From the NCBI RefSeq assembly GCF_000735605.1, contig NZ_JPKG01000006.1:248001-312000 (forward strand): a stretch of 64,000 nucleotides of DNA, given 5' to 3'. The translations under genes were made by a program, and so were the position numbers. This DNA is from Allobosea sp. LC85. Lineage in GTDB: Bacteria; Pseudomonadota; Alphaproteobacteria; Rhizobiales; Beijerinckiaceae. Below are positions 3,061-64,000 of the stretch, piece after piece. Under the pieces are notes generated by a model. It saw only the letters and a list, made by a program, of their open reading frames with translations, was not told the DNA's origin and ran no database searches. Positions within the stretch are counted from its first letter, which is position 1. Each line of letters starts with the position of its first letter.

Positions 3061-4101
3061 TTACTCGGCAGCGCTATCGGTTTCCGAACCCAGCGCGTCC
3101 ATCACTTCACGTGGCGAGCGGCGACGGCGCGTGCGCTTCGGAGCGGCCGTCTCTTCGGCAGCCGGAGCTTCGGCGGCCGGCGCTTCGGCAGGAGCAGCCT
3201 CGACCGGCGCAGCAACACGCTCCTCGGCGACCGCGATCGGAACCCTGACCGGATTGGTCAGGAAGGACGGAAGCGCGGCGGCGACATCGTTCGCCTCGCT
3301 TTCAGGCTCGACCTCCCGGCGCGGACGACGCTCGCTGCGCTCGGGACGCGGCCCGCGCTCCGGCCGGTCGCCGCGCTCGAAGCGGCGCTCGGGCTGGCTC
3401 TGCGCAGGGGCATTGTCGCCCTGCTCCGCGGTAGCCGGTTGCTCGGAACGCGGCACGAAGCCGCCGGGCTGGCCGTTCTGCCCGCCTTCGGGACGGTCGA
3501 AACGGCGCTCACCACGATCCGGGCCACGATCTTGGCGATCATTGCGATCGAAACGGCGGTTGTTGCGATCGTTGAAGCGATCGTTGCGACCCTGGCGGTC
3601 GAAGCGCTGGCCGTTGTTCTGCTGGCCATCCTGCCCCTCGCCGTCCTGGCGGGGAGCAGCATTCTGGCCATAGCCGTTCACGCCGCCCTGAGCCTGATGC
3701 CGCAGCTCAGGCTGAGGCGATCCCTGCGGGAAGGCAGCGTTCTCTTCGCCCTCACCCTCATCCTCGCCATCATCGCCGTCCTCGCCGAAGGCACGGTTCG
3801 GCGGGAAGCTATGGCCGAATTGCTGGGCCATCTGCTCCTGCGCCGCGAGAAGGATGCGGTAATAGTGCTCCGCGTGCTGGAAATAGTTCTCCGCAGCAAC
3901 GGGATCACCTGACGACTGAGCATCGCGCGCCAGTTGCAAGTACTTCTCCGCGACATGCTGAGCGGTACCACGAACTTTGACGTCCGGCCCGTTCGACTCG
4001 TAGCTGCGTTGCAACGGGTTGGGCGACTTTCGATTGCCGTTGTTGCTATTGTTATTGTTGTTGTTACGGCCGCGCATACGCCGGTTCTGACCTGGTCTCA
4101 T
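3061..4101 (-). CDS. DUF4167 domain protein with asparagine- and acid/arginine-rich low-complexity tail
   Basis: This 346-residue protein starts MRPGQNRRMRGR, then an asparagine run (about 13-25), then the conserved DUF4167 core (about 28-110: NPLQRSYESNGPDVKVRGTA, a helical segment with AENYFQHAEHYYRI). The rest is disordered: Gln/Gly-rich, then many RFDRND/RPERGPR-type repeats, an acidic Ala/Glu stretch and a basic end (KRTRRRRSPREV). The mix resembles RNA-binding or condensate-forming proteins, but no biochemical role is established that I know of. The gene is conserved next to prmC and clpB in Rhizobiales. The upstream gap of 378 bases suggests its own promoter. Confidence 0.88.
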   Translation of the reverse strand: MRPGQNRRMRGRNNNNNNSNNGNRKSPNPLQRSYESNGPDVKVRGTAQHVAEKYLQLARDAQSSGDPVAAENYFQHAEHYYRILLAAQEQMAQQFGHSFPPNRAFGEDGDDGEDEGEGEENAAFPQGSPQPELRHQAQGGVNGYGQNAAPRQDGEGQDGQQNNGQRFDRQGRNDRFNDRNNRRFDRNDRQDRGPDRGERRFDRPEGGQNGQPGGFVPRSEQPATAEQGDNAPAQSQPERRFERGDRPERGPRPERSERRPRREVEPESEANDVAAALPSFLTNPVRVPIAVAEERVAAPVEAAPAEAPAAEAPAAEETAAPKRTRRRRSPREVMDALGSETDSAAE

Positions 4102-4479
4102 TCGCGTCTATCTCGCGCTCTGTCTGTTCAAAGCAACCGGGTCACTGTCATGCGCGTACCGGCACGCGGCGGGTTGCGGCGCCGTGCCGGAGGGAGTCGA
4201 CCTGAAGGAGCAATGCGCCGTTCTTGGTCTTCACGCGCTCGTTTCCAAAAGGGGCGGTAACTCGCCCCATGAGCCGAATGGCACATCCATGCCATCGGAA
4301 TTCCGATCTTGCTTTGTCAGTTCCGTCAAACTTCGGACGTGTCCGGAGGCAAACCCTCGTCAATCAGGAGGAGGCTGCCCTAGGCTCGGCGCTGACGACA
4401 CCAGCTTCGGCTGATACCTCCATAGCGGCTTTTGCGTCCGGTTCCAAGCAAATTCGCACAATCTCTGTGCGTATCCCAT
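4102..4479. other. Intergenic region between prmC and the DUF4167 gene
   Basis: No convincing gene is seen here. It holds a terminator-like stem for the prmC side (4247-4268) and a perfect 14-base palindrome, ATCGGAATTCCGAT, at 4294-4307. It should also contain the promoter of the DUF4167 gene on the minus strand, which I cannot place with confidence. A 71-codon open frame across 4148-4363 has no recognisable protein features. Confidence 0.6.
4247..4268 (-). terminator. Possible terminator downstream of prmC
   Basis: On the minus strand GGGGCG, a 6-base loop, CGCCCC and then TTTT form a short, strong stem with a brief T run, about 210 bases after the prmC stop. The stem is only 6 bp, so the call is tentative. 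Confidence 0.4.
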
Positions 4480-5376
4480 TCAGCGGGAGAAGATCAGCGC
4501 GCGCTCGTGTCCGCCAAGATCCTTGCGCGCTCCATGATAATGGAACCCTTCGGACCGCATCAAGGCCGAGACATCCGGCTCCTGCCCGGCTCCGATCTCG
4601 AAGACGACGATGCCGCCCGGCGCCAGGAATTGCGGCAGGTCGCGCGCGAAGCGTCGATAGGGATCGAGCCCGTCGACCCCGCCATCCAGCGCCAGGAGCG
4701 GGTCATAGTCGCGCACCCCGACGTCCAGCCCGGGAATCTCAGCGCCCGGAATATAGGGAGGATTGGAGACGATCAGATCGAAGCGGCCATCGAGGCCCTT
4801 CACCCAGTCGCCCTCCCGAAACGCCGCGCGATCACCGACGCCATTTGCAAGAGCATTCGCGGCTGCGACCTCGCAGGCCTCTCCCGACAGATCGATGCCA
4901 AGGCCCTTCGCCTGCCTGAGCTCACTCAGGATCGCGATGAGGAGGCAGCCCGTACCAGTCCCCAGGTCCAGTATCGACAACGCCTCCCCGCGCCTTTCGC
5001 GAAGGGAATCGAGCGCGGCCTCGACCAGCGTCTCGGTATCGGGGCGCGGCTCGAGCGTCGCGGGCGAGAGCTTGAAGGTCAGCCCCCAGAACTCCCGCTC
5101 GCCAAGGATCCGCCAAACGGGCTCTCCTGCAAGCCGCCGCGCGGCGAAACTGTCCAGATCCGCGGCGGCCTGATCACCGATCAGGGCGTCATCCTCCGTG
5201 CGCCCGCCCTCGATCACCGCTTCAACGAGAAGGCGGGCATCAAGAACCGGCGTATCGCAGCCCGCAGCGCGCAGACGCTCCGCGAGCTGCCGCCGCGCTT
5301 CCCGAATCGTCAGCGCGCCGGCAGCTCGCGGCGACGGCGTTGCAGCGTCGCCACCGCTTTGCAGTGGCGACGTCAC
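4480..5376 (-). CDS. prmC: Release factor glutamine N5-methyltransferase
   Basis: PrmC methylates the glutamine of the GGQ motif of class I release factors using S-adenosylmethionine, which speeds termination. The 298-residue protein has an N-terminal helical domain (about 20-95), a SAM-binding motif DLGTGTG at 137-143 and the catalytic NPPY at 205-208, all typical of the family. It sits downstream of prfA, whose product is its substrate, with one small gene between. The N-terminal 20 residues are Ala/Pro-rich and may be part of a start that is too long; an internal start is possible. Confidence 0.95.
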   Translation of the reverse strand: MTSPLQSGGDAATPSPRAAGALTIREARRQLAERLRAAGCDTPVLDARLLVEAVIEGGRTEDDALIGDQAAADLDSFAARRLAGEPVWRILGEREFWGLTFKLSPATLEPRPDTETLVEAALDSLRERRGEALSILDLGTGTGCLLIAILSELRQAKGLGIDLSGEACEVAAANALANGVGDRAAFREGDWVKGLDGRFDLIVSNPPYIPGAEIPGLDVGVRDYDPLLALDGGVDGLDPYRRFARDLPQFLAPGGIVVFEIGAGQEPDVSALMRSEGFHYHGARKDLGGHERALIFSR

Positions 5377-5398
5377 GGCGCTGATGCCCGTATCGAAA

Positions 5399-5647
5399 TC
5401 AATTATTACCCTGCATCTTATGGTCCATGCAGATCTTCATCTTCTGATTGATGGAAGATTTGCTCTCGCGCGCCCCGCGCATTTCCATTGAACACGCCCT
5501 GCGCGCCTGCGATTGCGTCATTGCGTTTTGCAAAGGCGCAGGCTGTCCTTGGACGATGCGGCCGAAGGTCTTCTCCTGCGCTTCGGCTGCACCTGCCGTA
5601 GCCAGAGCCATCAGACCGCTCATTGCAATCACAGATGCAAGCTTCAT
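5399..5647 (-). CDS. Small predicted secreted protein between prfA and prmC
   Basis: I do not recognise the family. From the ATG at 5647 the product is 82 residues and starts with a classic signal peptide (MKLASVIAMSGLMALATAGAAEAQE, cleavage expected after AEA). The mature part is about 58 residues, basic, rich in Gln, Met and Lys, with two Cys (in RRACSMEM and KICMDHKM) that could form one disulfide or bind metal with the nearby Met and His. The frame is open 13 codons further upstream (to 5686), but the signal peptide fixes the likely start. Spacing to prmC is 22 bases, so it probably shares the ptsP-prfA-prmC transcript. Confidence 0.7.
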   Translation of the reverse strand: MKLASVIAMSGLMALATAGAAEAQEKTFGRIVQGQPAPLQNAMTQSQARRACSMEMRGARESKSSINQKMKICMDHKMQGNN

Positions 5648-5707
5648 GGCTTCCTCCAGCCTGTTTTCACATTGATCCGAGAACAACGCCGTTTCAGGAA
5701 AAAGGTT

Positions 5708-6793
5708 TCACGCCCCGCTTTGTGCTGCGAGCAATGTCGCCTGGTGCTCCGCCGTAAGGGCATCGATGATCTCGTCGAGCGCCAGTCCCTGCATCATCTC
5801 GTCGAGCTTGTAGAGCGTCAGGTTGATGCGGTGGTCCGTCACACGGCCTTGCGGGAAATTATAGGTACGGATCCGCTCGGACCGGTCGCCGGAGCCGATC
5901 TGCGAGCGTCGGTCCGCCGCGCGCTCGGCGTCGGCCTTCATCCGCTCCATGTCGTAGAGCCGGGCGCGCATCAACTCGAAGGCACGGGCCTTGTTCTTGT
6001 GCTGGGAACGCTCATCCTGGACCACGACCACGATCCCGCTCGGGATATGGGTCAGCCGGACGGCCGATTCGGTCTTGTTGACGTGCTGGCCGCCGGCGCC
6101 CCCGGCACGCATCGTGTCGATGCGCAGATCGTTGTCGTTGAGCGCGACGTCGACCTCGCTCGCCAAAGGCAGCATCGCCACCGTTGCGGCGGAGGTGTGA
6201 ATGCGGCCGCTCGCCTCGGTATCCGGCACACGCTGGACGCGGTGAGCTCCGGATTCAAATTTCAGCTTGGCATAGACGCCACGGCCTGAAATCTCGGCGA
6301 TGACCTCCTTGTAGCCACCAACCGTGCCTTCGCTCTCCGAGATGATGTCGACGCTCCACCCCTTCTGCGAGGCGTAGCGCTGATACATCCGCAGCAGATC
6401 CCCGGCGAAGAGCGAGGCCTCGTCACCGCCGGTGCCTGCCCGGATTTCCAGGATGACACCGCGTTCGTCGGCCGCGTCCTTGGGCAGGAGGGCGATCAGG
6501 ATTTCGCGGGCGCGCGCGTCGATCTCGGTTCGAGCAGTGTCGCGCTCCTCATAGGCCAGATCACGGAATTCGCTGTCGGTCGTCGGATCGTCGATCAGCC
6601 CCTGCGCCTCATCAAGGGACGCCTGGGCATTGCGCCAGGAGGTTATCGCAGCAACGACAGGTTCGAGCTCCGCCAACTCCTTGGCGAGTTCGACCGTACG
6701 CACGGCATCGGTCGAGCGGTTGATCTCGTCGGTCGCAACGGCGTGGCGTGCGACGATGCTGTCGAGACGATCTTGAGGAAGCTGAAGGGACAT
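5708..6793 (-). CDS. prfA: Peptide chain release factor 1
   Basis: RF1 recognises UAA and UAG in the ribosomal A site and triggers peptide release. The 361-residue protein has the expected length, the catalytic GGQ at 234-236 (within [12 protein letters not shown]) and the RF1-type tripeptide P-x-T at 190-192 (PDT rather than the common PAT), followed by [10 protein letters not shown]. That motif separates it from RF2. It follows ptsP by 51 bases and is cotranscribed with it by arrangement. Its modifying enzyme PrmC is encoded two genes downstream. Confidence 0.97.
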
Positions 6794-54944: not shown

Positions 54945-55373
54945 ATGCTACAGGTGTGGACCCGCTTTTCACGAAGCCCCGACGCCACAAGCGCAATAGA
55001 ATTTGCGCTGGTCGCTCCGGTCCTCCTGCTGCTGCTCTTCGGCATCATCGGCTATGGTTACGTTCTCGGTGTCTATCACGGCGTCCAGCAGATCGCCGCG
55101 GAAGCTGCGCGTGCTTCGGTCTCTGGCTTGAACGATACCGAACGTGAGCGGATCGCCAGGGATTTCGTGATCGCCAATGTCGAGAGCTATGCCTTTCTCG
55201 ACCCCGCCAAGATCAGCGTGTCGACGACCGCAAGCGGCGCCCCGACGCCGACCTTCCAGGTCGCGATTCGATACGACTTCTCCGATTCCATCTTTCACAG
55301 GCTGGGCAGCATGATCGCGCTGCCCGACCCGGTCGTGGAGCGCCGCGCCGTCGTTCAGCGTGGTGGTTACTGA
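54945..55373 (+). CDS. TadE-like pilus/secretion-associated protein
   Basis: A 142-residue protein with a prepilin-like N-terminus: short basic leader, DATSAIEFALVAPVLLLLLFGI (about 14-36, with the conserved Glu that follows the processing position), then a periplasmic domain of mixed strands. This is the TadE pseudopilin pattern of the Flp/Tad pilus system. It forms a pair with the TadG-like gene 36 bases downstream, but no other tad/cpa genes are within the window. Confidence 0.85.
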   Translation: MLQVWTRFSRSPDATSAIEFALVAPVLLLLLFGIIGYGYVLGVYHGVQQIAAEAARASVSGLNDTERERIARDFVIANVESYAFLDPAKISVSTTASGAPTPTFQVAIRYDFSDSIFHRLGSMIALPDPVVERRAVVQRGGY

Positions 55374-55409
55374 TACGCGTTGCCTTCCCCGCATTGACGA
55401 GGCCATGTG

Positions 55410-57131
55410 ATGTTCAGGCGTTTCGACTCCTTCGTCCGCGACCAGCGTGGTGGGACCGCACTCCTGTTCGCCGCGGGCATATTCATGCTGCTCGGCTTCG
55501 GCGCGATGGCCATCGATGTCGGGAGTTTCTTCTACCAGAAACGACGCCAGCAGACGGCGAATGACCTGGCAGCCCTAGCCGCCGCAGCCGACCTGCCCAA
55601 GGCACGCGCCGCCGCGCAGGCGAGTGCCGGGAGCAACGGTTTCGCCGCGAGCAATGTCCAGGCGGTGGTGTTCGGTGTCTACACGCCCGATCCGGCCCTG
55701 GCGCCGGTCGACCGCTTCAAGGTCGGACCAGTTGCAAGCGCCAATGCCGTCAAGGTCGATATGGCTGCGGTCACTCCGATGTTTCTCGGTCGCATCTTCG
55801 CAGCCTCGGCCACCTCAAGGCAACCTGAGGGCGCGTCCAGCTCGAGCACGAGCGAGAGTGGCGGAGATGTGCCGATCGGAACGAGTGCGATTGGCGTCCA
55901 GGACGTCCAGGCTTCATTCGCGGTGGGTTCGCGGCTCCTGAAACTGGATGGCGGCGTCCTCAATGGACTGCTCAGCGGCCTGCTCGGAAGCAGCGTTTCG
56001 CTGTCGATCATGGATTATGAGGCCCTGGCGACGGCCCGGATCGATCTCTTCGACTTCTCAAGGCGACTGGCCACTCGGATGCGCCTGTCGGCCGTGAGTT
56101 TCAACGATGTGCTGAACGCCAATGTAAAGCTCCCAGATGTATTGGCAGCGGCAGCAGACGCCGCTCGCGACCACAGCACCAGCAATGGATCAGCCAATAG
56201 CGCCCTGTCGCGGATCGCTGCGGCGTCTTCCGGTTCGACGAACCCCGTCCCTCTGAAATCGCTCGTCTCCTTCGGGACACTTGGCGACAAGCCGCTCTCC
56301 GGCGCCAACCCGATCGCGGTCTCCCTGTCTGCCCTCGACATGGTCTCGGCCCTGGCCCAGATCTCGAACGGAGCCCGCCAGATCGACATCGGCCTTGCGC
56401 TCAATATCCCCGGCCTTGCGGCCGTGACCCTGAAGCTCGGGATCGGCGAGCGCCCGATCGGGACCAGCATGGTCAGCGTCGGGCGGAGCGGTTCGAGCGT
56501 CCACACGGCACAAACACGCCTGCTGCTGACGGTCGATCTCGTGGGCTCGGGACAGGCCTCCCTGGTGCGTCTGCCGCTCTATCTCGAACTCGCCTCGGCG
56601 ACAGCCAAACTGACGAATGTCCAGTGCAGTCCGGGCGATGTCACCACGTCGCGGGTGACGCTCGGCGTCCAGCCGGCCCTGATCGACGCCTGGATCGGCC
56701 AGGTCTCCAATGCCGAGTTCAACAATTTCACCAGCAAACCCAACCCACCGGCGGCGCCGCTCCTGAATGTCGTAGGACTGGCGAAAGTCACCGGGCGCGC
56801 CCATGCAACCATGACCAATCTCACGGACACGCCGGTGAACTTCTCCTATGCAGACATCCTGCGTTCGCAAAAGCGCACGACCTCGACGCAGAATTTCGTT
56901 GCCACGCTGCTTTCGCGGCTGGTCGGCGATCTCGACCTCAAGGTCGAGGCATTGGGGCTGGGGTTGCCGCTACCGGGTCTCGGCGACCTGGTCAGTGGCG
57001 TCATCTCCGGTGCGGCAACACCGATCGACCAGTTGCTGAACTCCGTCCTCGGCACGCTCGGCATCGGCTTGGGTCAGGCAGACAGTTGGGTCAGCGGCGT
57101 GCGCTGCGGCGGATCCGTTCTGGTGAACTGA
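55410..57131 (+). CDS. TadG-like protein
   Basis: A 573-residue secreted or membrane-anchored protein. It begins RFDSFVRDQRGGTALLFAAGI, the Tad-family N-terminal segment, with a hydrophobic helix (about 15-37) and then QKRRQQTANDLAALAAAADL, the TadG-like continuation. The rest is a large, low-Cys periplasmic region rich in Ser, Ala, Gly and Val, with a Cys near residue 415 and one near the C-terminus (VRCGGSVLVN). No von Willebrand domain is evident. An upstream GTG at 55407 is an alternative. Confidence 0.82.
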   Translation: MFRRFDSFVRDQRGGTALLFAAGIFMLLGFGAMAIDVGSFFYQKRRQQTANDLAALAAAADLPKARAAAQASAGSNGFAASNVQAVVFGVYTPDPALAPVDRFKVGPVASANAVKVDMAAVTPMFLGRIFAASATSRQPEGASSSSTSESGGDVPIGTSAIGVQDVQASFAVGSRLLKLDGGVLNGLLSGLLGSSVSLSIMDYEALATARIDLFDFSRRLATRMRLSAVSFNDVLNANVKLPDVLAAAADAARDHSTSNGSANSALSRIAAASSGSTNPVPLKSLVSFGTLGDKPLSGANPIAVSLSALDMVSALAQISNGARQIDIGLALNIPGLAAVTLKLGIGERPIGTSMVSVGRSGSSVHTAQTRLLLTVDLVGSGQASLVRLPLYLELASATAKLTNVQCSPGDVTTSRVTLGVQPALIDAWIGQVSNAEFNNFTSKPNPPAAPLLNVVGLAKVTGRAHATMTNLTDTPVNFSYADILRSQKRTTSTQNFVATLLSRLVGDLDLKVEALGLGLPLPGLGDLVSGVISGAATPIDQLLNSVLGTLGIGLGQADSWVSGVRCGGSVLVN

Positions 57132-61917: not shown

Positions 61918-62880
61918 ATGTTCCAGGCCTTCGCTTCACACACCCAATCGGTGCCCGCCGTCGCTCTGGAATGTTGCGAGGTCATCGACGCATTGCGGCA
62001 CAAGGCGGGCTTCCTGCCCGAGGTGCAGCTGGCCTACGAAGCCGAAATCAAGACGCTGTGGGTGACGATCAAGCCGGAGCTGAAGCCGGTCTTCACGCTT
62101 CAGCTGCTTGACAGCCTCGGCAAGATCCAGAAGGCGATCTATGCTCTTTGGGGAGCGCCGGATCAGTATCACGGCGCGCCGGTACGCTTCCTCGCCTTCC
62201 GCGGGACCGGCCCATTCTTCACCCTCGGCGGCGATCTCGATTTCTATCTCGATTGTCTCGCCAAGAATGACCGCGCCGCGTTGGCGGAATATGCACGCCT
62301 TTCGATCGAGGGCGCCGTCTGGAACGCCAGCGGTCTCAACGGCCTGGTGATCACGCTCTCGACCATTCACGCCAAGGCGATCGGCGGCGGCATCGATGCA
62401 CCGCGCTCCTGCAATGTCATGATCGCCGAGGAGCAGGCCTCCTTCGTCTACCCCGAGATCAAGTTCAACCACTTCCCGATCACGGCGGTGGCGGTGTTGT
62501 CACGCCGCATGGGCTCGCGTGCAGCAGAGCGCCTGCTGCTCTCCGGGGAGGAGATGAGTGCCGCCGATTTCCTGGCGGCCGGCGCACTCGAAGCGGTGGT
62601 GCCGACCGGCACCGGCGAAGACTGGATCCGCAAATATGCCAGCGACTCCCTGCCGGTGCACGCGGCCAAGACCGCACTGTTCTCTGCGTTCAACCGCCGG
62701 GCCGGCGACCTGCGCGAGGAACTGGAGCATCTTGGCGAGATCTGGACGGATTGCATGCTCCGCCTCAACCCAAGCGCCATCTCGAAGCTGCAGCGCATCG
62801 CCCAGACCCAGGACCGCATGCTGACCCGCGTCTACCAGCGGCCAGCGAGCCCGATCCTGGCCAGCGCGGCGGCACTCTGA
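61918..62880 (+). CDS. RpfF-like crotonase (possible DSF-type fatty acid signal synthase)
   Basis: A 320-residue enoyl-CoA hydratase superfamily protein. The layout matches RpfF, the bifunctional thioesterase/dehydratase that makes cis-2-unsaturated fatty acid signals: YEAEIKTLWVTIKPELKP near the start, an oxyanion loop TLGGDLDFYLD (about 102-112), and the second active-site loop AIGGGIDAPRSCNVMIAEEQ followed by YPEIKFNHFP. The second acid is Glu 180; the first, usually Glu, is Asp 160 here. A membrane sensor gene follows, as in rpf-type loci. A different acyl-CoA hydratase role remains possible. Confidence 0.75.
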   Translation: MFQAFASHTQSVPAVALECCEVIDALRHKAGFLPEVQLAYEAEIKTLWVTIKPELKPVFTLQLLDSLGKIQKAIYALWGAPDQYHGAPVRFLAFRGTGPFFTLGGDLDFYLDCLAKNDRAALAEYARLSIEGAVWNASGLNGLVITLSTIHAKAIGGGIDAPRSCNVMIAEEQASFVYPEIKFNHFPITAVAVLSRRMGSRAAERLLLSGEEMSAADFLAAGALEAVVPTGTGEDWIRKYASDSLPVHAAKTALFSAFNRRAGDLREELEHLGEIWTDCMLRLNPSAISKLQRIAQTQDRMLTRVYQRPASPILASAAAL

Positions 62881-63028
62881 TCCTGCGAGAACGCCTTCGC
62901 GGAGACGCAAGGCGGTTGCAGCCCCCCTCACGAAACATTTACCTGTTCCGCCTAAAGGGTTTATCTGGCGCGAACTCGGGCTAGTGAAAAGCTCGTCGCG
63001 CGCCAGAGGCCTTGCAAGGCGGGACTGG

Positions 63029-64000
63029 ATGGCGGGTGTTTTCAAAGGGCTTCCCAGCGACAGATCGGGCGATGTCCGCGAGGATTTCGACCTGCCGGAC
63101 TATCGTCTGCTGGTCAGCTCGCTGTTTTCCTCGCCCGGCTCGATCATTCCGGGTGGCATTGCTGGTATCCTGACCCCCTATCTGTGCTGGCTCTCGACGG
63201 GTGCCAGCATTTTCATGACCCTGACCGCGCTGGTAACTCTGGTCGTCGCGCTCCGGATCATGACCGTCATCCGCTATCGCAGGCGCGATCATTCGGATGA
63301 CAGTGTTGCCGAGACACGGCGCTGGGACCGGGAATACTTCCTCGGTGCAACGGTTTTCAGCGCGGTCCTTGGCTACAGCTGCTACATCGCACTGACGCAG
63401 ACCGAAGACGCAGCCGCCCATATCACCTCGGTCGCCTCAACCATCGCGCTGGCCTCCGGCTATGTCTCGCGAAACGCCGGCCGGCCGAAATTCGTCGCCG
63501 TACAGCTCCTGACCTTTTGCGTGCCTATGGCCGTCGGCCTCGTCCAGGCCTCCAACGATTACTATCACTATATCGGCTATTTCGCGTTCCTGTACGTGGC
63601 GGCCAACATCGCCATCACCAATTCGCTGCACCGGAATCTCCTCGCGCTCAGCGAGGCGACCAAGCAGTCACGAGGGTTGGCATCGGCGCTGCACTCGCAG
63701 AACCTGACGCTCGATGCCGCCCTCAACACGATGATCCATGGCCTCGCCATGTATGATCGCAGCCTGAAGCTGGCGATCTGCAACGCACCGCACCGCACGC
63801 TCTTCGGGATACCCGAGACACTTGCCCTCCCCGGCACGCCTCTGACGGCGATCGCCCGCTTTCTGATCGAGCGTCAGGTCATCAGCGCCGACCAGGTTCG
63901 CGACATCAGAAGCGCGCTTGGCGAGGTCCAGCAGTCGCAACAGGCGGTCACTCGCGAATTGCAGACCCGCGGCGGGCGGCTGCTGGTCGTCACCATCGCA
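63029..64000 (+). CDS. Membrane PAS-domain sensor protein (cut by window end)
   Basis: The first 324 codons are seen. From the ATG at 63029 there are about six hydrophobic segments (about 32-52, 57-80, 103-122, 130-146, 155-172, 178-196), a short linker (200-225), and a PAS-like domain from about 227 (LDAALNTMIHGLAMYDRSLKLAICNAPHRTLFG pattern). In Rhizobiales such a PAS sequence usually precedes GGDEF and EAL domains, which I would expect past the window edge. An in-frame GTG at 62984 is an alternative start. It lies about 150 bases after the RpfF-like gene, so they may be cotranscribed. Confidence 0.75.
   Translation, partial: MAGVFKGLPSDRSGDVREDFDLPDYRLLVSSLFSSPGSIIPGGIAGILTPYLCWLSTGASIFMTLTALVTLVVALRIMTVIRYRRRDHSDDSVAETRRWDREYFLGATVFSAVLGYSCYIALTQTEDAAAHITSVASTIALASGYVSRNAGRPKFVAVQLLTFCVPMAVGLVQASNDYYHYIGYFAFLYVAANIAITNSLHRNLLALSEATKQSRGLASALHSQNLTLDAALNTMIHGLAMYDRSLKLAICNAPHRTLFGIPETLALPGTPLTAIARFLIERQVISADQVRDIRSALGEVQQSQQAVTRELQTRGGRLLVVTIA

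Follow-up and report, generated by a model that had tools for sequence, protein, structure and literature searches.

Introduction

In the passages of the reviews PMC4504480 and PMC13220807 (2026) that deal with DSF-type signalling, two core routes of perception are described, the RpfC/RpfG system and the soluble receptor RpfR, both of which end in c-di-GMP, and this form of signalling is attributed to Xanthomonas and its kin, to Burkholderia and its kin, and to some enterobacteria. RpfC is presented in part of PMC5391125 as a membrane-bound fatty-acid receptor, and the FI domain, which is the N-terminal part of RpfR, is described in an excerpt of PMC6361424 as an inhibitor of RpfF.

Here we analyse a gene pair at the end of a window of 64,000 nucleotides (the window being the whole stretch of DNA under analysis, positions 248001-312000 of contig C6 in the genome of a soil bacterium of the genus Bosea), in which an earlier note had seen an RpfF-like crotonase beside a membrane protein with a PAS domain. 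We call an RpfF-like crotonase D-type when it carries Asp at the position of E141 of Xcc RpfF, and E-type when it carries Glu there; the window enzyme is D-type. As in the RpfF/RpfR pair of Burkholderia and Cronobacter (BDSF synthase and receptor), an RpfF-family crotonase gene lies beside a PAS-GGDEF-EAL gene. RpfR, however, is soluble and begins with the FI domain, where the structure model of the window partner has a membrane helix bundle, and rpfR is convergent with rpfF, whereas D-type genes and their partners are codirectional (for RpfR, parts of PMC6361424 and PMC4504480). The difference from soluble RpfR that the earlier note expected of a membrane-bound sensor is seen in the membrane domain, which stands where RpfR has its FI domain. 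D-type partners, moreover, can be devoid of PAS, and the D-type enzyme has Asp in place of the first catalytic Glu. With RpfF/RpfC/RpfG of Xanthomonas the pair has in common an RpfF-family enzyme, a candidate membrane receptor and a c-di-GMP output, but the window partner has no histidine kinase domain and would unite receptor and output in one protein. The same membrane-domain family and the same kind of pairing are found in the E-type pairs of f201 (loci L178-L182) and at nine other loci; these E-type membrane pairs keep both catalytic Glu residues, L178-L182 keep the FPGMGAY loop too, and their crotonases share 30-33% identity with the window enzyme. The pair is not a canonical RpfF/RpfR pair, from which it departs in one of the two catalytic residues, in its score on the equivalog profile and in having no FI domain, although by analogy it most likely works like one. 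Titles and the beginnings of abstracts in an open-access library yielded no description of RpfF in Bosea or of a membrane partner of this kind, which is no proof of novelty; PMC7554724 contains the words RpfF and Bosea once each, and nine papers mention both RpfF and Methylobacterium.

Results

Layout of the locus

The features of the pair, in window coordinates, are the following.

61918..62880, plus strand: RpfF-family crotonase of D-type, 320 aa (open reading frame, profiles, fold and tree)
62395..62397, plus strand: codon of Asp160, which aligns with catalytic Glu141 of Xcc RpfF (3m6m)
62455..62457, plus strand: codon of Glu180, the retained counterpart of catalytic Glu161 of Xcc RpfF (alignment)
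62881..62983: intergenic gap of 103 bases, both flanking genes on the same strand
62984..64000, plus strand: 5' portion of the 790-aa membrane-PAS_7-GGDEF-EAL gene, its open reading frame running on past the window end
63089..63718, plus strand: membrane domain with six long helices, residues about 36-245 (structure model)
63470..63487, plus strand: RNAGRP motif inside the membrane domain (alignment of 29 rows)
63722..64000, plus strand: PAS_7 domain, residues 247-360, truncated by the window edge (profile match)

Read beyond the window, the partner gene extends over 62984-65356 and encodes 790 aa; its GTG start at 62984 is putative, being mechanically the first start codon. Around the intergenic gap, a scan of L003 from 4100 to 6100 found no consensus sigma-70 promoter or terminator. 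Elsewhere in the window, at 54945-57131, the products of two genes resemble, by eye, TadE- and TadG-type pilus proteins.

Family and position of the crotonase

The landmarks LGGDL, GGG and YPEIKFNHFP, on which the open reading frame at 61918-62880 had been called RpfF-like, can all be read in the 320-aa protein, and the resemblance in motifs stops short at two places, where GGGFE of RpfF has become GGGID and FPGMGAY has become FP-ITAV. Against the PRK08788 profile (NF006452, curated cut-off 177 bits) the crotonase scores 174.2 bits and its D-type relative L167 scores 207.4 bits, and the best other hydratase profile gives the window enzyme 52 bits. The NCBI RpfF equivalog NF053515 gives it 109.1 bits, so that the cut-off of 550 is not reached; two E-type alphaproteobacterial rows, at 233.7 and 241.1 bits, also fall below this cut-off. 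Matches to RpfF among PDB sequences range from E 1e-24 to 4e-21. In the fold search of the PDB the top 12 matches are all RpfF (of Xcc, B. cenocepacia, the 7zq7 protein and Cronobacter), with E 1.6e-19 to 6.6e-17, the best enoyl-CoA hydratase following at E 1.2e-13. A tree of 98 rows separates 83 RpfF-like proteins from 15 ordinary crotonases (14 from the host genome, one from Enterovirga) with support 100, this being SH-aLRT support alone in a tree whose outgroup branches are long and whose outgroup frames come from tblastn. We conclude that the window crotonase belongs to the RpfF family, because of this split and because RpfF proteins fill the 12 first places of the fold search. We rejected an ordinary enoyl-CoA hydratase: on PRK08788 the 14 further crotonases that the genome yields reach at most 72.5 bits, against 174, and the tree sets them apart. 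The RpfF-like reading of the earlier note holds as to family, by tree and fold; that the enzyme is an ordinary DSF synthase is not supported, given the change of Glu to Asp, the loop loss and 109 against 550 bits.

The position of the enzyme within the family is unsure. D-type crotonases form one clade with support 100 in three trees, and the neighbours of this clade vary with the outgroup: a tree with one outgroup row places it with f201, L175 and L194 (support 95), one with no outgroup places it with f201 (85), and with 15 outgroup rows it lies near the base of the RpfF family, the next fork having support 64. In the 98-row tree the three reference RpfF rows do not form one group. A single clade of all membrane-paired crotonases was weakly rejected (AU p 0.035). 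The crotonase trees were built without rows L172, L174, L217 and L199, and L175 and L194 were also left out of the 98-row tree and of the tree and AU test without outgroup.

Altered active site

Over 85 RpfF-like rows, the first catalytic position (Xcc E141) is Asp in 21/21 D-type rows and Glu in all 64 others, which include the three reference RpfF; further Bosea rows outside this count likewise carry Asp. In the FPGMGAY loop, each of the 21 D-type rows lacks the glycine of Xcc position 169, which 63/64 others have. At least 95% of the 85 rows taken together retain the second catalytic Glu, the GGD loop and the GGG loop. Some active crotonase-fold isomerases have Asp at the position of the first catalytic Glu. 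As aligned here, one catalytic and one loop residue split D-type from E-type almost perfectly, a clean natural experiment. In Xylella, the RpfF double mutant E141A/E161A makes no DSF (part of PMC4958263). Compared with three relatives, the crotonase gene has a dN/dS of about 0.03-0.10 and the partner gene one of about 0.03-0.12, and both genes are therefore maintained.

The membrane partner

The neighbouring gene had been read as a six-segment membrane protein with a PAS domain whose part beyond the window would hold a GGDEF/EAL output, and both readings proved right. Residues 1-245 are modelled as two short helices followed by six long ones (mean pLDDT 87.5), and on the extended sequence Pfam places PAS_7 at 247-360, GGDEF at 368-522 and EAL at 544-775 of the 790 aa; the GGDEF and EAL motifs were judged present by eye. 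A domain search of the 790 aa found no HisKA, HATPase or REC. Searched with 29 rows, the membrane domain had no Pfam match better than E 0.009 (PAS and GGDEF aside); its best match among PDB sequences was E 0.045, and a Foldseek search of the PDB gave no match at E <= 0.001. Across the 29 aligned membrane-domain rows, an alignment that leaves out L159, L163, L179 and L181, the first Arg and the Asn of RNAGRP are invariant.

The PAS domain of the partner had no phmmer match among PDB sequences at E <= 1, in a PDB copy that may lack the RpfR PAS and for a domain that diverges widely. PAS is missing from partners in two genera, by Pfam at L163, L165, L169 and L171 and by tblastn alone at L166 and L170, six PAS-less partners altogether. 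A PAS_7 domain is thus present in the window partner, as the earlier note had it, and yet PAS is unlikely to be the constant sensor of D-type partners; because partners of two genera do without it, what stays constant on the input side is the membrane domain with RNAGRP.

In the partner tree 19 D-type partners group with support 92, and L257, L259 and L261, labelled unpaired, fall inside this group. L259 begins at a contig start in the same genome as L172, with which it probably makes up a single locus cut in two. L258, also labelled unpaired in this tree, in fact adjoins an E-type crotonase.

Conservation and distribution of the pair

The pairing seen in the window recurs in relatives, and none of the three refuting conditions named in the earlier note (on the tree, the output domains and the pairing) applies. 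The partner adjoins the crotonase in 29/29 other Bosea loci examined (loci were available for 29 of the 33 other D-type Bosea genomes, four being without a locus) and in 39/39 loci of named records, where identity is 79-98% and the genomes overlap with the 29-locus set; the close relatives of the crotonase among named records are mostly Bosea. Outside Bosea the partner is adjacent at 14 of 15 D-type loci, and the fifteenth, L172, lies at a contig end; these 15 loci, like the 63 flanked E-type loci described below, were picked from search matches and are not random. The crotonase precedes the partner in Bosea, L158, L162, L163 and L165-L171, and follows it in L159-L161 and L164, the two genes pointing in the same direction in both orders. 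The surroundings of the pair differ, by eye, among Bosea, L096 and L098.

D-type genes occur in 34/37 Bosea genomes of the relatives search. In the family sample, with matches below 1e-100, they are found in 59/397 genomes (44 of them Bosea, the remaining 15 from five further genera), in the order sample in 3/397, all three Bosea, and in the class sample in 1/385, the genome of the window itself. Presence and absence of the membrane domain were counted in 62 chosen genomes: at E <= 1e-15 it is present in 32/32 D-type genomes, in 5/11 genomes having only an E-type crotonase and in 1/14 family members with no RpfF-like match at E <= 1e-35, and it is found in 0/5 Bosea genomes without a D-type crotonase even at E <= 1e-5. 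Thirty-nine of the 41 membrane-domain matches at E <= 1e-15 adjoin an RpfF-like crotonase, the two exceptions being G825 and a match of G996 at a contig start.

The crotonase and its membrane partner are functionally linked, because they are conserved together in Bosea and five other genera, in both orders, and are jointly absent from five Bosea genomes. Adjacency by chance was rejected on the linkage (29/29, 39/39 and 14/15), on the joint absence in Bosea and on the scarcity of EAL genes, such adjacency being rare because there are just nine of them in the host genome of 6.56 Mb.

The linkage has its gaps. A second D-type copy, L173 in genome G024, is about 66% identical and has no partner within 5 kb, and eight related membrane-GGDEF-EAL loci (L253-L257 and L260-L262) have no RpfF-like crotonase in the flanks examined. 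Genome G024 also has two E-type copies. At L174 (G1044), about 5000-5940, the crotonase match is split into two overlapping pieces that lie in different reading frames, which looks like a frameshift, and the partner shows each of its four domain matches.

E-type relatives in Alphaproteobacteria

Of the 63 E-type loci with flanks, 36 lie near an RpfC-like hybrid kinase, 14 near a membrane-GGDEF-EAL protein, and 13 near neither or are undecidable. We observed that RpfF near an RpfC-like kinase is common among the alphaproteobacterial E-type loci examined (L183-L193, L197-L206, L208-L211, L213, L215, L222 and L235-L237). At L184, for example, the kinase has HisKA, HATPase, REC and Hpt by Pfam, and the regulator has REC, PAS, GGDEF and EAL; in the regulators matched at RpfC-like loci, REC is combined with GGDEF-EAL or with a kinase region. 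Five Bosea genomes, of 3.2-3.9 Mb, do not have the D-type pair and carry in its place an E-type RpfF with an RpfC-like kinase and a REC-GGDEF-EAL regulator, as if, judging by gene content, one DSF-type system had replaced the other. The Bosea loci with this module are the following.

L176: genome G793
L177: genome G1086
L218: genome G031
L219: genome G026
L220: genome G034

Since E-type loci lie near either RpfC-like kinases or membrane-GGDEF-EAL proteins, alphaproteobacteria have two layouts, one like that of Xanthomonas and one with a single membrane protein, and the window pair belongs to the second, in a form whose enzyme is altered.

Discussion

We consider it somewhat probable that the pair is a variant membrane-receptor DSF-type module controlling c-di-GMP, in which the crotonase makes a signal that the partner detects. 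The crotonase, with its rebuilt active site, would make a fatty-acid signal from acyl-ACP or acyl-CoA; the partner, anchored by its six-helix membrane domain, would detect the product (or its enzyme) in or through the membrane and would change c-di-GMP through its GGDEF and EAL domains. What we observe is the family of the enzyme, its altered catalytic pair, the GGDEF and EAL motifs, the linkage, the joint presence and absence, and gene trees that broadly match, the partner tree grouping the D-type partners (92) as the crotonase tree groups the D-type enzymes (100). What we infer is a DSF-like fatty acid as the product, the membrane domain as the sensor, and the direction in which c-di-GMP changes. 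Counting against such a module are the change of E141 to Asp together with the glycine loss, the miss on the equivalog profile, the lone copy L173, the eight crotonase-less loci, the 13/63 E-type loci with neither kind of neighbour or undecidable, and the lack of a promoter or terminator signal of an operon in the scanned region. A bolder form of this reading, possible although we hold it to be rather doubtful, is that the D-type enzyme makes a chemically new acyl signal (not cis-2-enoic), because Asp for the first catalytic Glu and the loop deletion would have changed its chemistry, and that the RNAGRP domain would be a receptor fold for fatty acids that is new and directly wired to c-di-GMP, which would add a third mode of DSF-type perception to those of RpfC/RpfG and RpfR.

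The same changes in the active site, fixed as they are in the D-type clade, would also suit a crotonase that is no longer a synthase and has become an acyl-binding regulatory subunit, docking on the partner and reporting the state of acyl-ACP or acyl-CoA. RpfF does bind receptors, since according to their titles structure 3m6m shows it with the REC domain of RpfC and structure 6dgn with the FI domain of RpfR, and the Xylella strain with E141A/E161A RpfF is described in part of PMC4958263 as being without DSF and yet still sensing it. We nevertheless regard a regulatory subunit as unlikely: nearly all rows have kept the second catalytic Glu as well as the GGD loop and the GGG loop, and purifying selection suits an enzyme equally. 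Asp, moreover, is able to serve as acid or base. Little credence can be given, too, to a metabolic enzyme (a hydratase, isomerase or thioesterase acting on membrane or storage lipids) that is co-regulated with a c-di-GMP protein and exports no signal. The crotonase fold is catalytically versatile, and the NCBI name of the broad family is just 'crotonase/enoyl-CoA hydratase family protein', both of which would accommodate it; however, no further lipid gene, by eye, is common to the loci of Bosea, L096 and L098 beside the pair, and more than half of the E-type relatives (36/63) adjoin an RpfC-like kinase. That the two genes are chance neighbours held together by genus-level synteny is very improbable, even though the Bosea genomes are close relatives of one another, because the linkage extends outside Bosea, where the order is partly reversed and the surroundings differ, and the pair is jointly absent from five Bosea genomes.

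For the membrane-receptor module that we favour, the question of the receptor is directly testable, because the sole constant part before GGDEF is a small, well-predicted membrane domain. The pair may be an undescribed signalling system, since its genes stay together across relatives and the active site of its enzyme has changed. Our data point to a third, membrane-bound, one-protein DSF-type receptor in Alphaproteobacteria (Bosea, Enterovirga and kin), a candidate receptor that has been kept with a synthase-like partner through reversal of gene order and loss of PAS.
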